From Vitreimonas flagellata (GTDB taxonomy: Bacteria; Pseudomonadota; Alphaproteobacteria; Caulobacterales; Aquidulcibacteraceae), in assembly GCF_004634425.1 (NCBI RefSeq), contig NZ_SBJL01000001.1:283001-347000 (forward strand): a DNA stretch of 64,000 nucleotides, read 5' to 3'. Shown here piece by piece: positions 43,040 to 50,331 of this stretch; the stretch's first letter is position 1, and each line of letters begins with the position of its first letter. Made by a program: the position numbers and the translations under genes. The notes beneath the pieces are model-generated. The model searched no databases. It was not told the DNA's origin and was given only the letters and a program-made list of their open reading frames with translations.

Positions 43040-43275
43040 TAGAGTGGTGGTTGGGGCGCGCCGGGGGCTGGGTCAAGAGCAGGCGGGCGCGGGGGCATGG
43101 ATTTGCGCCCTCCAGCGCGCGCTAAAAGCCACGCTGGAACAGTTGGTTGCCGTTTCGGGGACATTGCGGTAGCGCAGCGCTGATCTGCCCTGGGGGCGCC
43201 TGCCTTGACAAGCTGGGCGCCCGCATGCGCCTGTCCGCGCAAATTTCAGCCCGTTTCGACTCTCCGGAGCCCCGC

Positions 43276-45078
43276 ATGCACGCCTACCGTACCCACACTT
43301 GCGGCGCCCTTCGCCCGGCAGATGCCGGCAGGGACGTGCGCCTGGCTGGTTGGGTTCACCGCAAGCGCGACCACGGCGGGCTGCTCTTCATCGATTTGCG
43401 CGATAATTACGGGCTAACCCAGATCGTGATCGCGCCGTCGAGCCCGGCGTTTGCGCTGGCTGAACGGCTGCGCGCCGAGAGCGTCATCCGCATCGACGGC
43501 AAGGTGGTGGAGCGCACGGCGGAAACCGTGAACGCGAACCTGCCGACGGGCGGCGTTGAAGTGCAGGCGGCAGCACTTGAGGTGCTGGGCGCGGCGGAAG
43601 AGCTGCCGTTGCCGGTGTTCGGCGAACAAGAATATCCCGAAGACATCCGCCTCAAGTATCGCTTCCTCGATCTGCGCCGCGAGAAGCTGCACAAATCGAT
43701 CCTGCTGCGCAGCCAAGTGATCGCGAGCCTGCGTCGCCGCATGATCGATCAGGGCTTCACCGAGTTTCAGACGCCGATCCTGACGGCGTCGTCGCCGGAA
43801 GGCGCGCGCGACTTCTTGGTGCCGTCGCGTCTGCATCCGGGCAAGTTCTACGCGCTGCCGCAGGCGCCGCAGCAATTCAAGCAGCTGCTCATGGTGGCGG
43901 GCTTCGATAAATATTTCCAAATCGCGCCGTGTTTCCGCGACGAGGACGCGCGCGCCGATCGTTCGCCTGGCGAATTCTATCAGCTCGATTTCGAGATGAG
44001 CTTCGTCACGCAGGAAGACGTGTTCAACGCCATCGGCCCGGTGCTGGCCGGCGTGTTCGAGGAATTCGGCAACGGCAAGCGCGTGACGCCGGCCAACGAA
44101 TTTCCGCGTATCCCCTATGCCGAGGCGATCTCAAAGTACGGTTCGGACAAGCCGGACCTGCGCAACCCGCTGATCCTGCAAGACGTCAGCGAGCACTTCC
44201 GCGGCGGCGGCTTTGGCGTGTTCGCGCGCATTCTCGAAAAGCCCAAAACCGCGGTGTGGGCTGTGCCTGCGCCGAACGGCGGCTCGCGCGCGTTCTGCGA
44301 TAAGATGAATGCGTGGGCGCAAGGCGAAGGCCAGCCGGGTCTGGGTTACATCTTCTGGCGCGAAGGCGAAGAAGGCGGCGCAGGACCGATCGCCAAGAAC
44401 ATTGGCGTCGAGAAGGCCAACGCCATTCGTGAGCAGCTTGGTTTGAAGGTGGGCGATGCCGCGTTCTTCGTCGCGGGCGAGCCGGCGAGTTTCTATAAAT
44501 TCGCAGGCCTCGCGCGCAACAAAGTCGCCGACGAATTGAATCTGGCCGACAAGGACCAGTTCAAATTCTGCTGGATCGTCGATTTTCCGATGTACGAGTG
44601 GAGCGAGGAAGAGAAGAAGATCGACTTCTCGCACAACCCGTTCTCGATGCCGAATTTCGACCACGAGAAATTCTTGAAGCTCGATGTGAGCGATCGCGAT
44701 ACGATCGAGAAGATCACGGCGTTCCAATACGACATCGTCTGCAACGGTGTGGAGCTCTCATCGGGCGCGATCCGGAACCACAAGCCGGAAATCATGATCA
44801 AGGCGTTCGAACTCGCCGGCTATCCGCAGAGCGTGGTGGAAGAGAAGTTCGGCGGCATGCTAAACGCTTTCCGCTTTGGCGCGCCGCCGCACGGTGGCTC
44901 GGCGCCGGGCGTGGACCGTATCGTCATGCTGCTCGCGGGCGTCGAGAACATCCGGGAAGTGATCGTCTTCCCGTTCAATCAACAGGCTCAAGACCTGATG
45001 ATGAACGCGCCAGGCGAAGTGACGCCGAAGCAGCTGAAAGAACTGCACATCCGCGTGGTCGAGCCGCCGAAGAGTTGA
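43276..45078 (+). CDS. aspS: Aspartyl-tRNA synthetase (probably non-discriminating)
   Basis: Charges tRNA(Asp), and probably also tRNA(Asn), with aspartate. The 600-residue bacterial-type class II enzyme has an N-terminal OB-fold ([25 protein letters not shown]), motif 2 [25 protein letters not shown], a GAD insertion domain, and motif 3 [14 protein letters not shown]. Two features suggest it also mischarges tRNA(Asn): presence of gatC and gatA in the same window, and the [11 protein letters not shown] rather than QSPQ reading in the active-site region. The ATG at 43276 was chosen over a 43-residue upstream extension. Confidence 0.96.
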
Positions 45079-45537
45079 TTATTCGCAGACGCGTACGCGC
45101 AGGCCCTGCGGCGCTTGCGTTTCCGCATCGCCGCAAGCTTGGTTCAGCTGCGCTTGGGTGAGGCCGCGGGCTTCGGCGAGATCGGCGCCGGAAATGTTGG
45201 CGCGGGTGAAGGTCGCGCGCGTGACGTCGGCGCTGGTGAAATTCACGAACGTCAAATCCGCGTCGGTGAAATTGGCTGCGACGAATTCGGTGTCGCTTGC
45301 GTCGGCGCGGGTGAGTACGGCGTTGGAAAAATCGGCGCCGTTGAACACCGAATTCGACATCTTGGCGCCGGCGAGGATGCGCCCCGAGAGGTCGCAATCC
45401 TCGCACACCCCGCCATAAGCCGGTGAAAGCGCGATGCGTGTCGAGCCGCCGAACGGCCAGAACGCGAGCGCCTGGCCGCCAAACGCAACGGTCAGCGCAG
45501 CGCCCGCGATGGCGAGGAGGCGGAATTGTGTCAACAC
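45079..45537 (-). CDS. Exported pentapeptide-repeat protein
   Basis: About 152 residues. A hydrophobic N-terminal segment (FRLLAIAGAALTVAFGGQALAF) indicates export or a membrane anchor. After a CEDC pair comes a run of pentapeptide repeats with A(D/N)F-type units: SVFNGADFSNAVLTRADASDTEF, then FTDADLTFVNFTSADVTRATF, forming a short right-handed beta-helix. A C-terminal region has two more cysteines. No ATG is well placed; the GTG at 45537 begins just before the hydrophobic segment, while an ATG-like start at 45666 would add 43 unlikely residues. It is convergent with aspS, its stop adjacent to the aspS stop. Function unknown. Confidence 0.75.
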   Translation of the reverse strand: MLTQFRLLAIAGAALTVAFGGQALAFWPFGGSTRIALSPAYGGVCEDCDLSGRILAGAKMSNSVFNGADFSNAVLTRADASDTEFVAANFTDADLTFVNFTSADVTRATFTRANISGADLAEARGLTQAQLNQACGDAETQAPQGLRVRVCE

Positions 45538-45732
45538 GTGGACGCGGATAGGTCCGCCCAAGTGTTCGCGCCAGTGAAAAGTGGGTAAGCGAGGATTGTT
45601 ACTTATTGTTTCAAGCCGTGCGCGCCAGTCTAACCTGTGGGCAATGTGGATGTTGCGGCTCCGCAAGAAGTATTCGCATTAGCCGGCAAGTCGCAGGTTT
45701 GCGTGGGGCCGATAGTGCGCCAACCCGTTCGG

Positions 45733-46051: not shown

Positions 46052-48889
46052 CTAGCCGCCGCTGGCCTCGCCTGTCGCGCCGCAGGCGGCGCATTTGCCG
46101 GAGTGTTCGACGGTGAAGTGGCCGCAAGCGCCGCAGGGCTCGTTGCGATAGCCGGTGGCGGCTGGGCGCGCGGGCGCTGCCGCCGGCTTCTCGTCGCGAC
46201 GATCGCGGGTCTCGGCAGCGCGTGGGCGCAGCATCACGAGATTGTCGGGCGATGCGCCACGGGCGAAGCCGCGCGAGATGAGGCGTGCGGCGCTTTCGGC
46301 GTCTTGCGCGTGCTTGGAGAGGCCGTCGCTGCGCGCTTCGAATGGATCGACCTGCGCGAGATCGGCGCGGCCGAGATACGAGACCGCGAGTTCGCGGAAG
46401 ATGTAGTCGAGGATCGATGTCGCGTGGCGGATCGTGTCGTTGCCGCGCACTTCGCCGGCGGGTTCGAAGCGCGTGAACAGGAACGCGTCGACATATTCTT
46501 CGAGCGGCACGCCATATTGCAGGCCGATCGAGATTGAGATCGCGAAATTGTTCATCAGTGAACGGAAGGACGCGCCTTCCTTGTGCAGATCGATGAAGAT
46601 TTCGCCGAGTTCGCCATCGTCATATTCGCCGGTGTGCAAATAGACTTTGTGACCTCCGACTTGCGATTTTTGGATGTATCCTTTGCGGCGTTCCGGTAAG
46701 CGGCGACGGCCTTTGAAGGCAGGCGCTTCGCTGACGGAGAGTGTGGCTGGCGACGGAACGGCGATCGTTTGCGGCGCTGCCGGCGCGGCTTGCGCGGCCG
46801 GCCGGGCTTCCTCGGCGACATCTTCTTCCAGCGCCGGAAGCGTTAGCGTGATCGGCGGCGCTTCGGCGCGGATGTTGATGAGCGCAACGCCCGCGGCTTG
46901 TGCTGCTTTAAGCAATTCGGCGCGGCGTTCGGCCCCCGCTTCACCGAGCGCGATGTCGAGCGCGGTGCGTGCGTAGGGCGCTGTCGCGGCGGCCATGGCG
47001 ATGCGCGCATCCGGCGCGATGTCGCGGTCGCTGGCGAAGATCGCGGCATGCGCGTCGGCAAGGGTCGGTGCGCCTTTGAGATCGCCCGCGCCCATACAGA
47101 AGGCTTCGGCGGCGGCGATATCATCTTCGCTGAAGCCGAGTGTCTTCAAGAGATCACCGCGCTTGCCGGCGGCGACGTCAGGCGGAAGCTTTAGCACTTC
47201 TTCGCAGAGCTCAGGGCCGATCACGAGCGGGTGCACGGCGGCGCGCAGATTGAAGGCGTCGGCGGCGGCTTCTTCGATGGCTTCGAGCGCAGGCTCGGTG
47301 AGGCCAAGCTTCTCGAGGCGTTCGAGATTGACGCCCGGCGCGCCGCGCAAGGTACGGCGACCTTCGACGTGAAGCGTGAGCGCGTTGATCTCGTCGGCAT
47401 TGTAGCCAAGCGTGGCGAGGCCTGCGCGTGCGTCGTCGCTGAGGATGCGGCCGAAACGGCCGTCGTCGCGCTGGCCGAAACCCGCAACGCCTGGCGCGGG
47501 TGCGGCGCCAATGGCCGAAACGCCCAAGCGTCGCGCGCTGCCGATGTCGCGCGCAAAGGCGATGGCGACCGAGGTGCGCAAGCCGGCATTTTTGGCGCCG
47601 GGGAGTCCGCGATAGATCGTCTGAGCACGCGCGGCGATGGCGCCTTTGAGCGATGCGGCTGCATCACGCGCAACTTTCAGCGACGCTTCTTCAGCGCGCT
47701 TCGACTTGCTCCATTCCGGATAGGCTTGCTTCGCATCAGCAAGCGCGGCGCTCTCGGAGATCGCGGTGGCGTGCGCGAGCGCTGCGACCGAGGCGGCGAG
47801 CGTGCGTCCTGCATCGCTGTCGTACGCGAGACCGGCGCGCATCAGCAGCGCGGCGACGCCTTCGAGGCGGATGAGGATGGGGCGACGTGGCGCGCCATGT
47901 GCGCCGTGCGCAGCGTCGAGCGCTTGCACGAGCGCGCGGATCGCGGCTTCGAAGCCGGCGATGTCGAAGCCCTTGTCGGCATCATGGAAGCGCGCGAGCG
48001 CGATGCTGGCGCCGATGACGCTGGTTTCGTCATTCGCGGCAAACGCGCCGGTCGGATCGATGGCGCTGTCGCCAAAGGCGGTCAGCGTATGCGCGCCGGG
48101 TTCGGAGGCAGCGATGGCGACACGGCGGCGTGCGGGATCGGCGCCGGCGTCGAGCGCTGCGCTATAGGCGCCGCGGCTCACTGCGCCGGCGAGTGCTGCG
48201 AGAATGTCCGCATCGGGTGCGCCCGCGAGGCGCGCGGCGGCGGCTTTGCGGCGTACGCCGCCATTCTCGACGTTCAAACCGTTGCGCACGGCTTCGATGG
48301 CGAGATCCGCAAGCGCGGTGTCGAGTGCGCGTGCGCCGGCGGCGAGCGCTGCGCCCGCGCGAATGCGCGCGGCTTCGTCGGCGACAAGCGCTAACGATGC
48401 GTCGCCATCAGCGCGCACGAGAATGGAGGCGCCGTCGCGGCCTTCGGGATCGGCCATGCGTGCGGCGGCGTCGAGCGCGTCGAGTGCGGCGGACGAGGGA
48501 TTGCCGGCGATGCCGATCTTGGCGCCGGCGGCGAGCAAGGTTTGCGCACGCGCGATCGCGCTCAATTCTTCGCGCTTATCTTTGGGCCAATAGAGCAATG
48601 CTGCGGAAAGTGCGAGCTCGGCGCCGTCGGCCATTGCTGCGCGCAGGAGCGGTGGATCGAGTGTGACCTGGCCGGCGGCGATCATTGCGTTAAGGCGATC
48701 GGCGAGCGTCTTGTCCTCAGCCCAGAACCCAAGCCTTGCGGTAGCCCGCGCTAGCGCTTTGGTGATGCTGGGGCCTGACGGCGTGTCGATGGCGATCCCG
48801 GCTTCGAGCGCAGCCTGCACCATTGCCTCGGACCATTGCGCGGGCGCTTGGGCGATCGCGCGCGAATCCTGATCGAAGTCCTGAGCCAT
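46052..48889 (-). CDS. NrdJ-like class II ribonucleotide reductase pseudoenzyme
   Basis: A 945-residue Ala-rich protein with the layout of vitamin B12-dependent ribonucleotide reductase NrdJ (usually about 1200) but without its chemistry. Segments that follow NrdJ are [18 protein letters not shown] (about 350), [14 protein letters not shown] with [10 protein letters not shown] (about 500-520), [25 protein letters not shown] (about 600), and [12 protein letters not shown]. The best-kept part is the C-terminal TSCPD-like domain (about 735-840): [20 protein letters not shown], then [26 protein letters not shown] CxxC pair tail ends the chain. The catalytic barrel has no cysteine; NPCSE, CNLAS and DCANPCG motifs are absent. 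ATG at 48889 follows AGGAG. Role unknown; a regulatory or assembly function is inference. Confidence 0.8.
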
Positions 48890-48934: not shown

Positions 48935-48983
48935 GATCAATATCTAGTATGGAACGACCTGGGATTATCCCAAGATATTGTTT
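48935..48983 (-). promoter_or_regulatory. Two NrdR-box-like sites upstream of the NrdJ-like gene
   Basis: Box 1 at 48935-48950 (GATCAATATCTAGTAT) and box 2 at 48968-48983 (TCCCAAGATATTGTTT). Against the consensus ACACAATATATTGTGT they match 10 and 12 of 16 positions by eye, and share an inverted CAATATCT core. Start-to-start spacing is 33 bases, near three helical turns, as in paired NrdR operators. They lie 46-94 bases before the ATG, and may also affect the divergent NDUFA12-like gene. Confidence 0.6.
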
Positions 48984-49079: not shown

Positions 49080-49487
49080 ATGCTTAAGCGCATCTTCACC
49101 TGGTGGAACGGCGCCACGATCGGAGCTCTGGTCGATATCGGTCGCCGCGGAGCGTTCGTGGGCGAGGACGAACAAGGCAATCGCTTTTACGAAGAGCGCC
49201 GGCCGAGCATCGAAGGCCGCAAGCGCCGCTACGTCATTTATAACGGCCTGGCCGAAGCTTCGCGCGTGTCGCCGGATTGGCATGGCTGGATGCACCACAC
49301 GATCGCTGAACCGCCGACGGTGCAGCCGTTGAAGCGTCAGAAATGGGAAAAGCCGCACGAGCCGAATTTGACCGGCACCGTGTTCGCGTATCGCCCGAAG
49401 GGTTCGATCGCACGTGGTGGTGAGCGCCAAGCGTCAAGCGCGGACTACGAAGCGTGGACCCCGGATGCTGCGGAGCCGCGCTCATGA
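49080..49487 (+). CDS. NADH:ubiquinone oxidoreductase accessory subunit, NDUFA12/B17.2 type
   Basis: A 135-residue accessory subunit of respiratory complex I, found in alphaproteobacteria and mitochondria. The N-terminus is LKRIFTWWNGATIGALVD. The core contains VGEDEQGNRFYEERR, RRYVIYNGLAEASRVSPDWHGWMHHT and PTVQP, all characteristic of the family. The tail is hydrophilic. The ATG at 49080 was preferred to a frame beginning at 48978. It overlaps the mlaD-like gene by four bases. Confidence 0.93.
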   Translation: MLKRIFTWWNGATIGALVDIGRRGAFVGEDEQGNRFYEERRPSIEGRKRRYVIYNGLAEASRVSPDWHGWMHHTIAEPPTVQPLKRQKWEKPHEPNLTGTVFAYRPKGSIARGGERQASSADYEAWTPDAAEPRS

Positions 49488-49966
49488 ACGCCGGTTTCGA
49501 GCGTTGGGGCGAGACGATCGTCGGCGCAATCGTTGCGTTTGTGGCGGTTGGTTTCTTCGTGTTCGCGGCTTCGCAAGCGGGCGCGACGGGCAGCGCGAAC
49601 GGCTATGAATTGACGGCGCGGTTTCAGCGCGTCGATGGCGTCGGCGTTGGTTCCGACGTGCGTGTCTCTGGCGTGAAAGTCGGCGTGGTGCGTGCAGTGG
49701 GCCTTGACCCCGACACGTATGACGCGCGCCTGACGCTTTTGATCGACGGCGGCATTCAAGTGCTCGACGACAGCACCGCGCGCATCGCGACGGATGGTTT
49801 GCTTGGCGGCGGTTACGTCGCGATCGAGCCGGCTGGCTTTGATGCGCTGGCCGCTGGCGGTGAAATTCCGAACACGCAAGGTTCGGTCGATTTGCTGACT
49901 GTGCTCGCCAGCTTTGCGCAGGGGTCTGGGCAAAGCCAAACTCAGGAAGAAGCGCCACCACCATGA
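49484..49966 (+). CDS. mlaD: MlaD-like outer-membrane lipid asymmetry protein (MCE domain)
   Basis: A membrane-anchored MCE-domain protein that binds phospholipid for the Mla transport system. The 160-residue product has one N-terminal transmembrane helix (ETIVGAIVAFVAVGFFVFAAS). This is followed by the MCE domain: YELTARFQRVDGVGVGSDVRVSGVKVGVVRAVGLD, a beta-barrel core ending LLGGGYVAIEP and a hydrophilic tail. Its place between the NDUFA12-type and DUF2155 genes is a conserved alphaproteobacterial order; mlaE and mlaF are not here. It overlaps both neighbours by four bases. Confidence 0.9.
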   Translation: MNAGFERWGETIVGAIVAFVAVGFFVFAASQAGATGSANGYELTARFQRVDGVGVGSDVRVSGVKVGVVRAVGLDPDTYDARLTLLIDGGIQVLDDSTARIATDGLLGGGYVAIEPAGFDALAAGGEIPNTQGSVDLLTVLASFAQGSGQSQTQEEAPPP

Positions 49967-50331
49967 TCCGCACGCTTGTCGCCGCGTTTGTGTTTTTTGC
50001 CGCCGCCGTGGGCCCAGCTCACGCGCAGCGCGCTGTCATTCGCGGTCTCGACAAGATCACCGGCCACGCACGCGATTACACGTTGACGATCGGGCGCGCT
50101 GAACGCGTCGGTTCGCTCGAAGTGATCGCGCGCGCCTGCACCAAGAGCGCGCCGGAAGAAACGCCGGAAGTGCGCATCTACGTCGAAGTGTTCGACAATC
50201 CGCCGGCGCGCGAAGGCGAAGAGGCGACGCGCCAGGAAATTTTCCATGGCTGGCTGTTTGCGTCGAGCCCCGGCCTCAACGCCGTCGATCATCCCACTTG
50301 GGATATCTGGGCGATCGACTGCCGCGCGTAA
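49963..50331 (+). CDS. DUF2155 domain exported protein
   Basis: A 122-residue protein with a signal peptide (MIRTLVAAFVFFAAAVGPAHA) and the DUF2155 region: AVIRGLDKITGHARDYTLTIGRAERVGSLEVIARAC, then EVRIYVEVFDNPP, FHGWLFASSPGLNAVDHPTWDIWAIDC. The two cysteines are likely paired. The family is restricted largely to alphaproteobacteria and lacks an experimentally known role. It is cotranscribed with the NDUFA12-type and mlaD-like genes. Confidence 0.92.
   Translation: MIRTLVAAFVFFAAAVGPAHAQRAVIRGLDKITGHARDYTLTIGRAERVGSLEVIARACTKSAPEETPEVRIYVEVFDNPPAREGEEATRQEIFHGWLFASSPGLNAVDHPTWDIWAIDCRA

Follow-up and report, generated by a model that had tools for sequence, protein, structure and literature searches.

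The gene at 46052..48889 (minus strand) of the window, by which is meant the whole 64-kb stretch of DNA that was analysed, encodes a 945-aa derivative of NrdJ, the B12-dependent class II ribonucleotide reductase (RNR), from which the catalytic residues have been lost. That this is the lineage's own nrdJ, dead as a catalyst and descended in place, is very nearly certain. The gene is under purifying selection and has very probably been retained for its C-terminal module, built around a TSCPD (IscU-like) domain; the near-unchanged tail domain of a dead enzyme suggests that it has a second job. The features of the locus are:

46052..48889, minus strand: dead NrdJ, 945 aa (open reading frame with Pfam and NCBIfam matches)
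46856..48889, minus strand: degenerate RNR barrel, residues 1-678 (fold alignment; catalytic cysteines and NPCSE missing)
46355..46708, minus strand: TSCPD / IscU-like domain, residues 728-845, hyperconserved (Pfam TSCPD and identity)
46241..46279, minus strand: motif ISxGFxRGxxPDN, residues 871-883, after the TSCPD domain (conserved across genera)
46082..46135, minus strand: four-cysteine Zn-ribbon-like tail, residues 919-936 (cysteine columns in the alignment)
48935-48950 and 48968-48983, unstranded: two tandem NrdR-box-like palindromes, 33 bp start to start, 46-94 bp 5' of the ATG
49080..49487, plus strand: NDUFA12 gene, the divergent neighbour that marks the nrdJ locus (Pfam PF05071 and synteny)
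49963..50331, plus strand: DUF2155 gene, second synteny marker (domain match and synteny)
45079..45666, minus strand: pentapeptide-repeat gene, downstream synteny marker (domain match and synteny)
43225..45078 (start approximate), plus strand: class II tRNA synthetase, aspS from its domain reading, downstream marker (domains and synteny)

Protein architecture and catalytic residues

The frame opens at an ATG with AAGGAG 5' of it, and an alternative start at an upstream TTG (48940) is possible. The best NCBIfam model is NF005736, a 1222-aa B12-dependent NrdJ (391 bits, E 9e-117; cut-off 1737). Pfam recognizes the RNR barrel at residues 294-402 only (E 4e-12) and the TSCPD domain (PF12637) at residues 743-835 (E 4e-10; 40.4 bits, above the gathering score of 22.8). 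The NrdJ-like blocks picked out in an earlier note on this DNA (38 protein letters, not shown, and the terminal CxxC pairs) were found in the protein. The six cysteines of the chain lie at positions 562, 598, 919, 922, 933 and 936, none of them a catalytic position, and residues 1-561 contain no cysteine at all.

The note had also held that the catalytic residues are missing, which was borne out by an alignment of 31 dead-type sequences (23 genera, families f1-f4) with 17 intact NrdJ. The NPCSE cysteine, which carries the thiyl radical on the finger loop, the NPCSE glutamate, and the HACFIQ and CNLAS cysteines, which we take to be the active-site redox pair, are each present in 0/31 dead-type sequences versus 17/17 intact ones. 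The PTGT loop is lost as well, its first threonine being found in none of the 31 and its second in one. Among the intact rows, one (L152) has serine in place of the asparagine that precedes the radical cysteine. The CxxC pairs at the C-terminus are present, with the refinement that they represent four of the six tail cysteines of intact NrdJ: these four are kept in all 31 dead-type sequences and the other two (positions 1231 and 1243 of L030) in none. Each of the six occurs in 16/17 intact rows; the row without is most likely L051, in which the contig ends before the frame does.

An AlphaFold2 model of the dead protein (mean pLDDT 77.6, pTM 0.69) aligns with the Rhodobacter sphaeroides NrdJ structure 7b9q at Z 31.1 over 557 residues (rmsd 3.0), an agreement that is partly built in because the alignment behind the model included intact NrdJ rows. 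The RNR barrel fold is thus predicted to be kept. The TSCPD domain model gave weak matches only in the PDB and no clear one; the best IscU aligned at Z 5.1 (89 residues, rmsd 3.5), a lipoyltransferase scored higher (Z 5.9), and Foldseek returned no match at E <= 0.001.

The closest known system is the long alphaproteobacterial NrdJ (NF005736/PRK07562; R. sphaeroides 7b9p/7b9q), with which the dead protein shares its locus, domain order, predicted fold and a nearly identical TSCPD domain. It differs in lacking the catalytic cysteines, the NPCSE motif, the PTGT loop and two tail cysteines, and in being 277 residues shorter than the 1222-position model. A second relative is NrdJb, the small subunit of the split class II enzyme of Pseudomonas aeruginosa, which, according to the portions available of PMC4520616 and (for its domains) PMC9669993, carries an IscU-like and a zinc-finger domain apart from an active barrel in cis. 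NrdJb mediates dithiol exchange, as stated in the same portions of PMC4520616, whereas dead NrdJ has lost two tail cysteines; moreover, in contrast to the NrdJb system, 38 of the 60 genomes of the window's own family have no class II match above the TIGR02504 cut-off, such a match being found in the other 22. In the accessible text of PMC5704485 the six-cysteine tail is described as an electron carrier that binds Zn and occurs in about 70% of NrdJ, and, according to the parts available of that paper and of PMC4520616, the class II tail helps to transfer electrons and to form oligomers. That dead NrdJ lacks two of these cysteines speaks against its tail being used to carry electrons.

An IscU-like domain of the same kind is found at the C-termini of long class II enzymes, and its role is said in the available part of PMC9669993 not to have been reported; the carriers treated there are RNRs taken as active, and that part describes no catalytically dead carrier. 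In the open-access literature searched, which takes in few papers of subscription journals, no account was found of a bacterial NrdJ that is dead as a catalyst.

Betaherpesviruses have catalytically dead RNR large subunits, which are, as here, pseudoenzymes made from an RNR large subunit; unlike dead NrdJ, they are viral, derive from class I and have another role.

Locus, descent and distribution

The divergent NDUFA12 gene, with DUF2155 beyond it, flanks all 28 dead loci examined (f1-f4), 7/12 intact loci of the order (L156, L158-L162 and L164) and 3/6 outgroup loci (L029, L030 and L051, from Alphaproteobacteria, Xanthobacteraceae and Beijerinckiaceae). The opposite flank is frequently a pentapeptide-repeat gene followed by aspS, and this flank also occurs at the intact f4 loci L152 and L154, although these have no NDUFA12 match. 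The gene had been taken for a paralogue of nrdJ, a reading that synteny rules out: it sits at the nrdJ locus, divergent from NDUFA12, and is the positional orthologue. No genome with both a dead and an intact form was noticed among the best NF005736 matches of 200 genomes of the order.

These 200 genomes of Caulobacterales were searched with the NF005736 profile, dead and intact forms being separated by score, with the motifs checked on 31 sequences. By profile score, the dead-type form is present in 140/200 (best 407 bits) and the intact form in 49/200, namely 40 above the cut-off and nine with matches of at least 1172 bits; G217, which lacks TSCPD, is counted among the 49. The remaining 11 have weak matches only, which we attribute to cross-matching with NrdA. 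Each of them has a match to NrdB, and TSCPD was absent from the five of them that were searched (G014, G061, G074, G085 and G101). In its own family the window protein was matched in 54/60 genomes and in 44/45 of the good ones. Among the controls for NF005736, Caulobacter vibrioides gives a match and none exceeds the cut-off.

The gene or its domain has been lost in four genera (g4, g16, g24 and g45), two of which, g24 and g45, come from the intact group. In the f4 genus g24 (G074, G078, G082, G137, G145, G153 and G193) the NF005736 matches are weak and NrdB is present, nrdJ apparently having been lost; its sole member in the rpoB tree, G074, is sister to the intact-NrdJ genome G181. Breaks of the dead gene's frame occur at L022 (frames of 596 and 383 aa) and L024, and one TAG lies within the match at G133:C1:31218-32714; each may be sequencing error or real decay.

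In a full-length tree of 48 rows the 31 dead rows form one clade (100/100) among the NrdJ of the order, and in a second of 40 rows, from which 11 dead rows had been dropped beforehand, the dead forms again group at 100/100; the branches are long in both trees, which makes a single origin less sure. A tree restricted to the slowly evolving TSCPD domain (60 rows; the domain pattern missed one intact row, L160) marginally rejects a single clade of all dead and solo forms (p-AU 0.0465) and does not reject one clade of dead Caulobacterales with the other dead forms (p-AU 0.0913) or a single Caulobacterales clade (p-AU 0.497). Several independent losses of catalysis are therefore likely, though not proven. 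In an rpoB tree of 27/29 genomes, two fragmentary rpoB genes having been excluded, the genomes with dead forms lie on one side of a weakly supported branch (46/27).

A class-wide draw gave 144/241 genomes above the NF005736 cut-off. The TSCPD domain was then sought in a selection of 25 genomes, 17 from the class (best E 7e-35 to 2e-249) and eight from the order, and was matched in 12. Three of these have a dead NrdJ outside the order, with the catalytic columns lost (G246 of f33, G381 of f119 and G445 of f127), and four have TSCPD-only proteins in frames of 277-301 aa (G289, G370 and G435 of f76, and G224 of f11). NDUFA12 adjoins the gene in f33, f127, f76 and f11, that is, in six of these seven genomes, and is absent beside the f119 gene. 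The other matches are those of G290, G235 and G333, at 45-50% identity, and of the order members G089 and G188. NrdB was found in 10/10 genomes checked, including the seven with dead or TSCPD-only forms.

The free-standing TSCPD proteins of f76 (loci among L219-L222) lack the Zn-ribbon-like tail, and that of L221 has an N-terminal stretch without a Pfam match. A further TSCPD match in G381 is incomplete and lies where a contig ends (G381:C13:3-221); the dead gene of this genome is on C3. The converse arrangement occurs in G217 (f4), in which a 902-aa NrdJ frame (L157, 7508-10213) has the catalytic motifs and a tail ending in GCS, with no TSCPD domain and little of the long insert; no TSCPD match was found in the whole G217 genome. 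The 959-aa frame of L223 (G286, f73) matches NF005736 at 1-944 only; it may lack the tail domain or have it encoded at another place.

Selection, conservation and NrdR-box-like sites

Purifying selection was measured on one pair, the window gene and the 92% identical L022. By NG86, dN/dS is 0.080 overall, with 0.089 for residues 1-255, 0.073 for 256-460, 0.103 for 461-727, 0.027 for the TSCPD domain and 0.045 for residues 846-945; YN00 gives 0.082 overall and 0.155 for residues 1-255. Values for neighbouring genes range from 0.014 to 0.20 (NG86). Together with the retention of the gene in the order, this low ratio fits the view, already put forward from the sequence, of a retained pseudoenzyme derived from a class II RNR and free of recent decay.

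Conservation is very unevenly distributed along the chain. Over the same 107 between-family genome pairs, identity is 86.9% for the TSCPD domain, 75.8% for RpoB and 23.4% for residues 20-727. Of the 130 positions conserved in at least 85% of 23 genera, 95 fall in the TSCPD domain (118 residues) and 18 in residues 1-727, and S872, G874, R877, G878, P881, D882 and N883 of the ISxGFxRGxxPDN motif are found in 23/23 genera. The domain is about as similar among dead forms (87.6% identity) as among intact ones (87.7%), with 84.4% between the two.

Candidate regulatory sites were scored out of 44 with weights and a consensus of our own, the latter taken to be that of the NrdR box. The pair at 48935-48983 is the only one in the window to score at least 29/44, and its score was reached in 0/2000 Markov shuffles of the upstream region, in a shuffle and spacing scan that took the first ATG of each frame and so misplaced some starts. 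The spacing, start to start, is 33 bp here and 32 in f3; a published value for tandem NrdR boxes, in the available part of PMC2892513, is about 31-32 bp.

Across 67 loci (1.02 Mb), a pair scoring at least 30 lies near the 5' end of the gene in 37 (dead 31/49, intact 6/18), and four such pairs occur elsewhere, one of them L005's own pair, overlooked by the anchor. The dead loci divide into 18/23 in genus g1 of f1, 4/6 in other f1, 8/9 in f3, 1/6 in f2 and 0/5 in f4, and the intact ones into 1/5 in f4, 2/7 in f5 and 3/6 among outgroups. Besides L005, the misses in g1 are L014 and L023, which start inside the gene, L024, with its frame break, and L025, in which one box falls below the floor. When 16 upstream regions of g1 are aligned, the sites are conserved and stand out from their surroundings. 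A permuted-palindrome and spacing test is excluded from the evidence, since its 15 loci had all been preselected at 30 or more and the test was circular.

Farther afield, the dead genes of G246 and G381 each have a nearby pair scoring 32; G445, G289 and G370 have none at 30 near their genes, and weak pairs of 30 are found at two of the four TSCPD-only loci, one far from the gene. Pairs also occur in RNR gene regions, scanned as regions with start codons not fixed: 32 at the nrdB of the window's genome, and 33 and 32 at the nrdA and nrdB of G188. The genome's own nrdA scores 28, and its short nrdJ has no pair at 26 or more. The regulator gene nrdR is present in 32/33 genomes examined. NDUFA12 could own the sites, because it shares the intergenic region with dead nrdJ; two Caedibacter loci without an NDUFA12 match also carry box-like sites. 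On the reading preferred here, NrdR would bind at 48935-48983.

Possible function and the accompanying reductases

A count of the other RNR genes of the window's genome (99.97% complete) gave a second class II NrdJ of another type (740 aa; 567.9 bits, cut-off 399.95), an NrdA of 624 aa (NF006577, 1030 bits, cut-off 620) in which no ATP cone was matched at E 0.01, and a single NrdB. The 740-aa protein (L001, G000:C4:105107-106741) looks intact and has a weak TSCPD domain of its own. Across the order NrdB is present in 198/200 genomes, the two without it (G154 and G194) having intact NrdJ.

Tentatively, and as a chain that falls somewhat short of probable, we propose that the ancestral nrdJ of the lineage was inactivated in place long ago, and that its C-terminal module (TSCPD/IscU-like domain, SxGFxRG motif and Zn-ribbon-like tail) would have been kept for a job without ribonucleotide reduction. 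The dead gene would remain under NrdR-type RNR control in many lineages, and the module, scaffolded by the dead barrel, may act in trans on NrdA/NrdB, the class I reductase, by binding to it as a regulatory or accessory subunit. Since the gene appears to stay under such control in many lineages, the job would most likely lie in dNTP supply; because the box-like sites point in that direction and the carriers share class I RNR, we infer that the latter is the partner. Among the roles suggested in the earlier note, modulation of another reductase is accordingly the favoured one, helped by the box-like sites and the NrdB count, although co-occurrence with NrdB says little because NrdB is so common. 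Class I RNR can do without the module in some genomes, since the 11 of the order with neither form all have NrdB. That the domain survives beside a dead barrel, and even where there is no barrel, favours a binding function of its own. A broader proposal is more doubtful: in several alphaproteobacterial lineages the TSCPD/IscU-like domain, whether on dead NrdJ or free-standing, would regulate class I RNR in trans or be its partner in assembly.

A role of the module outside nucleotide metabolism, as a moonlighting partner, with the box-like sites a fading inheritance, is possible though unlikely. It would account for the missing pairs at all f4 and most f2 dead loci and for the domain standing alone in f76 and f11, where pairs are weak and confined to two loci of four; it is harder to reconcile with the boxes kept in 30/38 dead loci of f1 and f3 and with the clear footprint in genus g1. 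Improbable is a working barrel that senses dNTPs or binds B12 and relays the signal. The predicted fold is kept and dN/dS is low within the genus (NG86 0.07-0.10, one pair), but the fold model's alignment held intact NrdJ rows, only 18/727 positions are conserved across genera, identity between families is 23%, and the TSCPD domain survives without a barrel in f76 and f11. With so little conservation in residues 1-727 and with the PTGT loop lost, the ideas of dNTP sensing or of binding B12, both raised from the sequence at the outset, find no support as far as the barrel is concerned.

It is very improbable that the protein still reduces ribonucleotides by some unusual chemistry. Its counterpart in Caulobacter crescentus goes under the name of a B12-dependent RNR (PMC5869019) and of NrdJ (PMC6538847) in the parts of these papers available, but residues 1-561 are free of cysteine, the radical and redox cysteines are lost in 31/31 and NrdB is found nearly throughout the order. 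A slowly dying, functionless pseudogene, to which the frame breaks at L022 and L024, the internal stop in G133 and the absence from 11/200 genomes might point, is ruled out as hardly credible by the dN/dS of 0.08, the retention in 140/200 genomes by profile score, and a TSCPD domain more conserved than RpoB.

The preferred reading, of a dead nrdJ kept for its module, also touches Caulobacter crescentus. In the accessible part of PMC5869019, CCNA_01966, near 2.11 Mb, is named a vitamin B12-dependent ribonucleotide reductase, and in that of PMC6538847 it is listed as NrdJ in nucleotide reduction, with dNTP production among the uses of B12; the legend of Fig. 3D there names NrdE, not NrdJ, as B12-dependent. 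G188 (4.1 Mb, f3), which its gene order suggests is a close relative of C. crescentus, has nrdB at 0.28, the dead gene at 2.12 and nrdA at 3.86 Mb, as expected if they correspond to CCNA_00261, CCNA_01966 and CCNA_03607, in that order; nrdA alone is picked up by PF02867 in this genome. CCNA_01966 is therefore probably dead as a catalyst, and B12 use and dNTP supply in C. crescentus are to be read differently on that account. The series of intact NrdJ, dead NrdJ with TSCPD, TSCPD alone and intact NrdJ without TSCPD makes the role of the IscU-like domain directly testable in a laboratory strain that is easy to work with. If the broader proposal is true, the domain would form an unrecognised layer of bacterial dNTP control, one that arose as class II enzymes died and their tail was retained.
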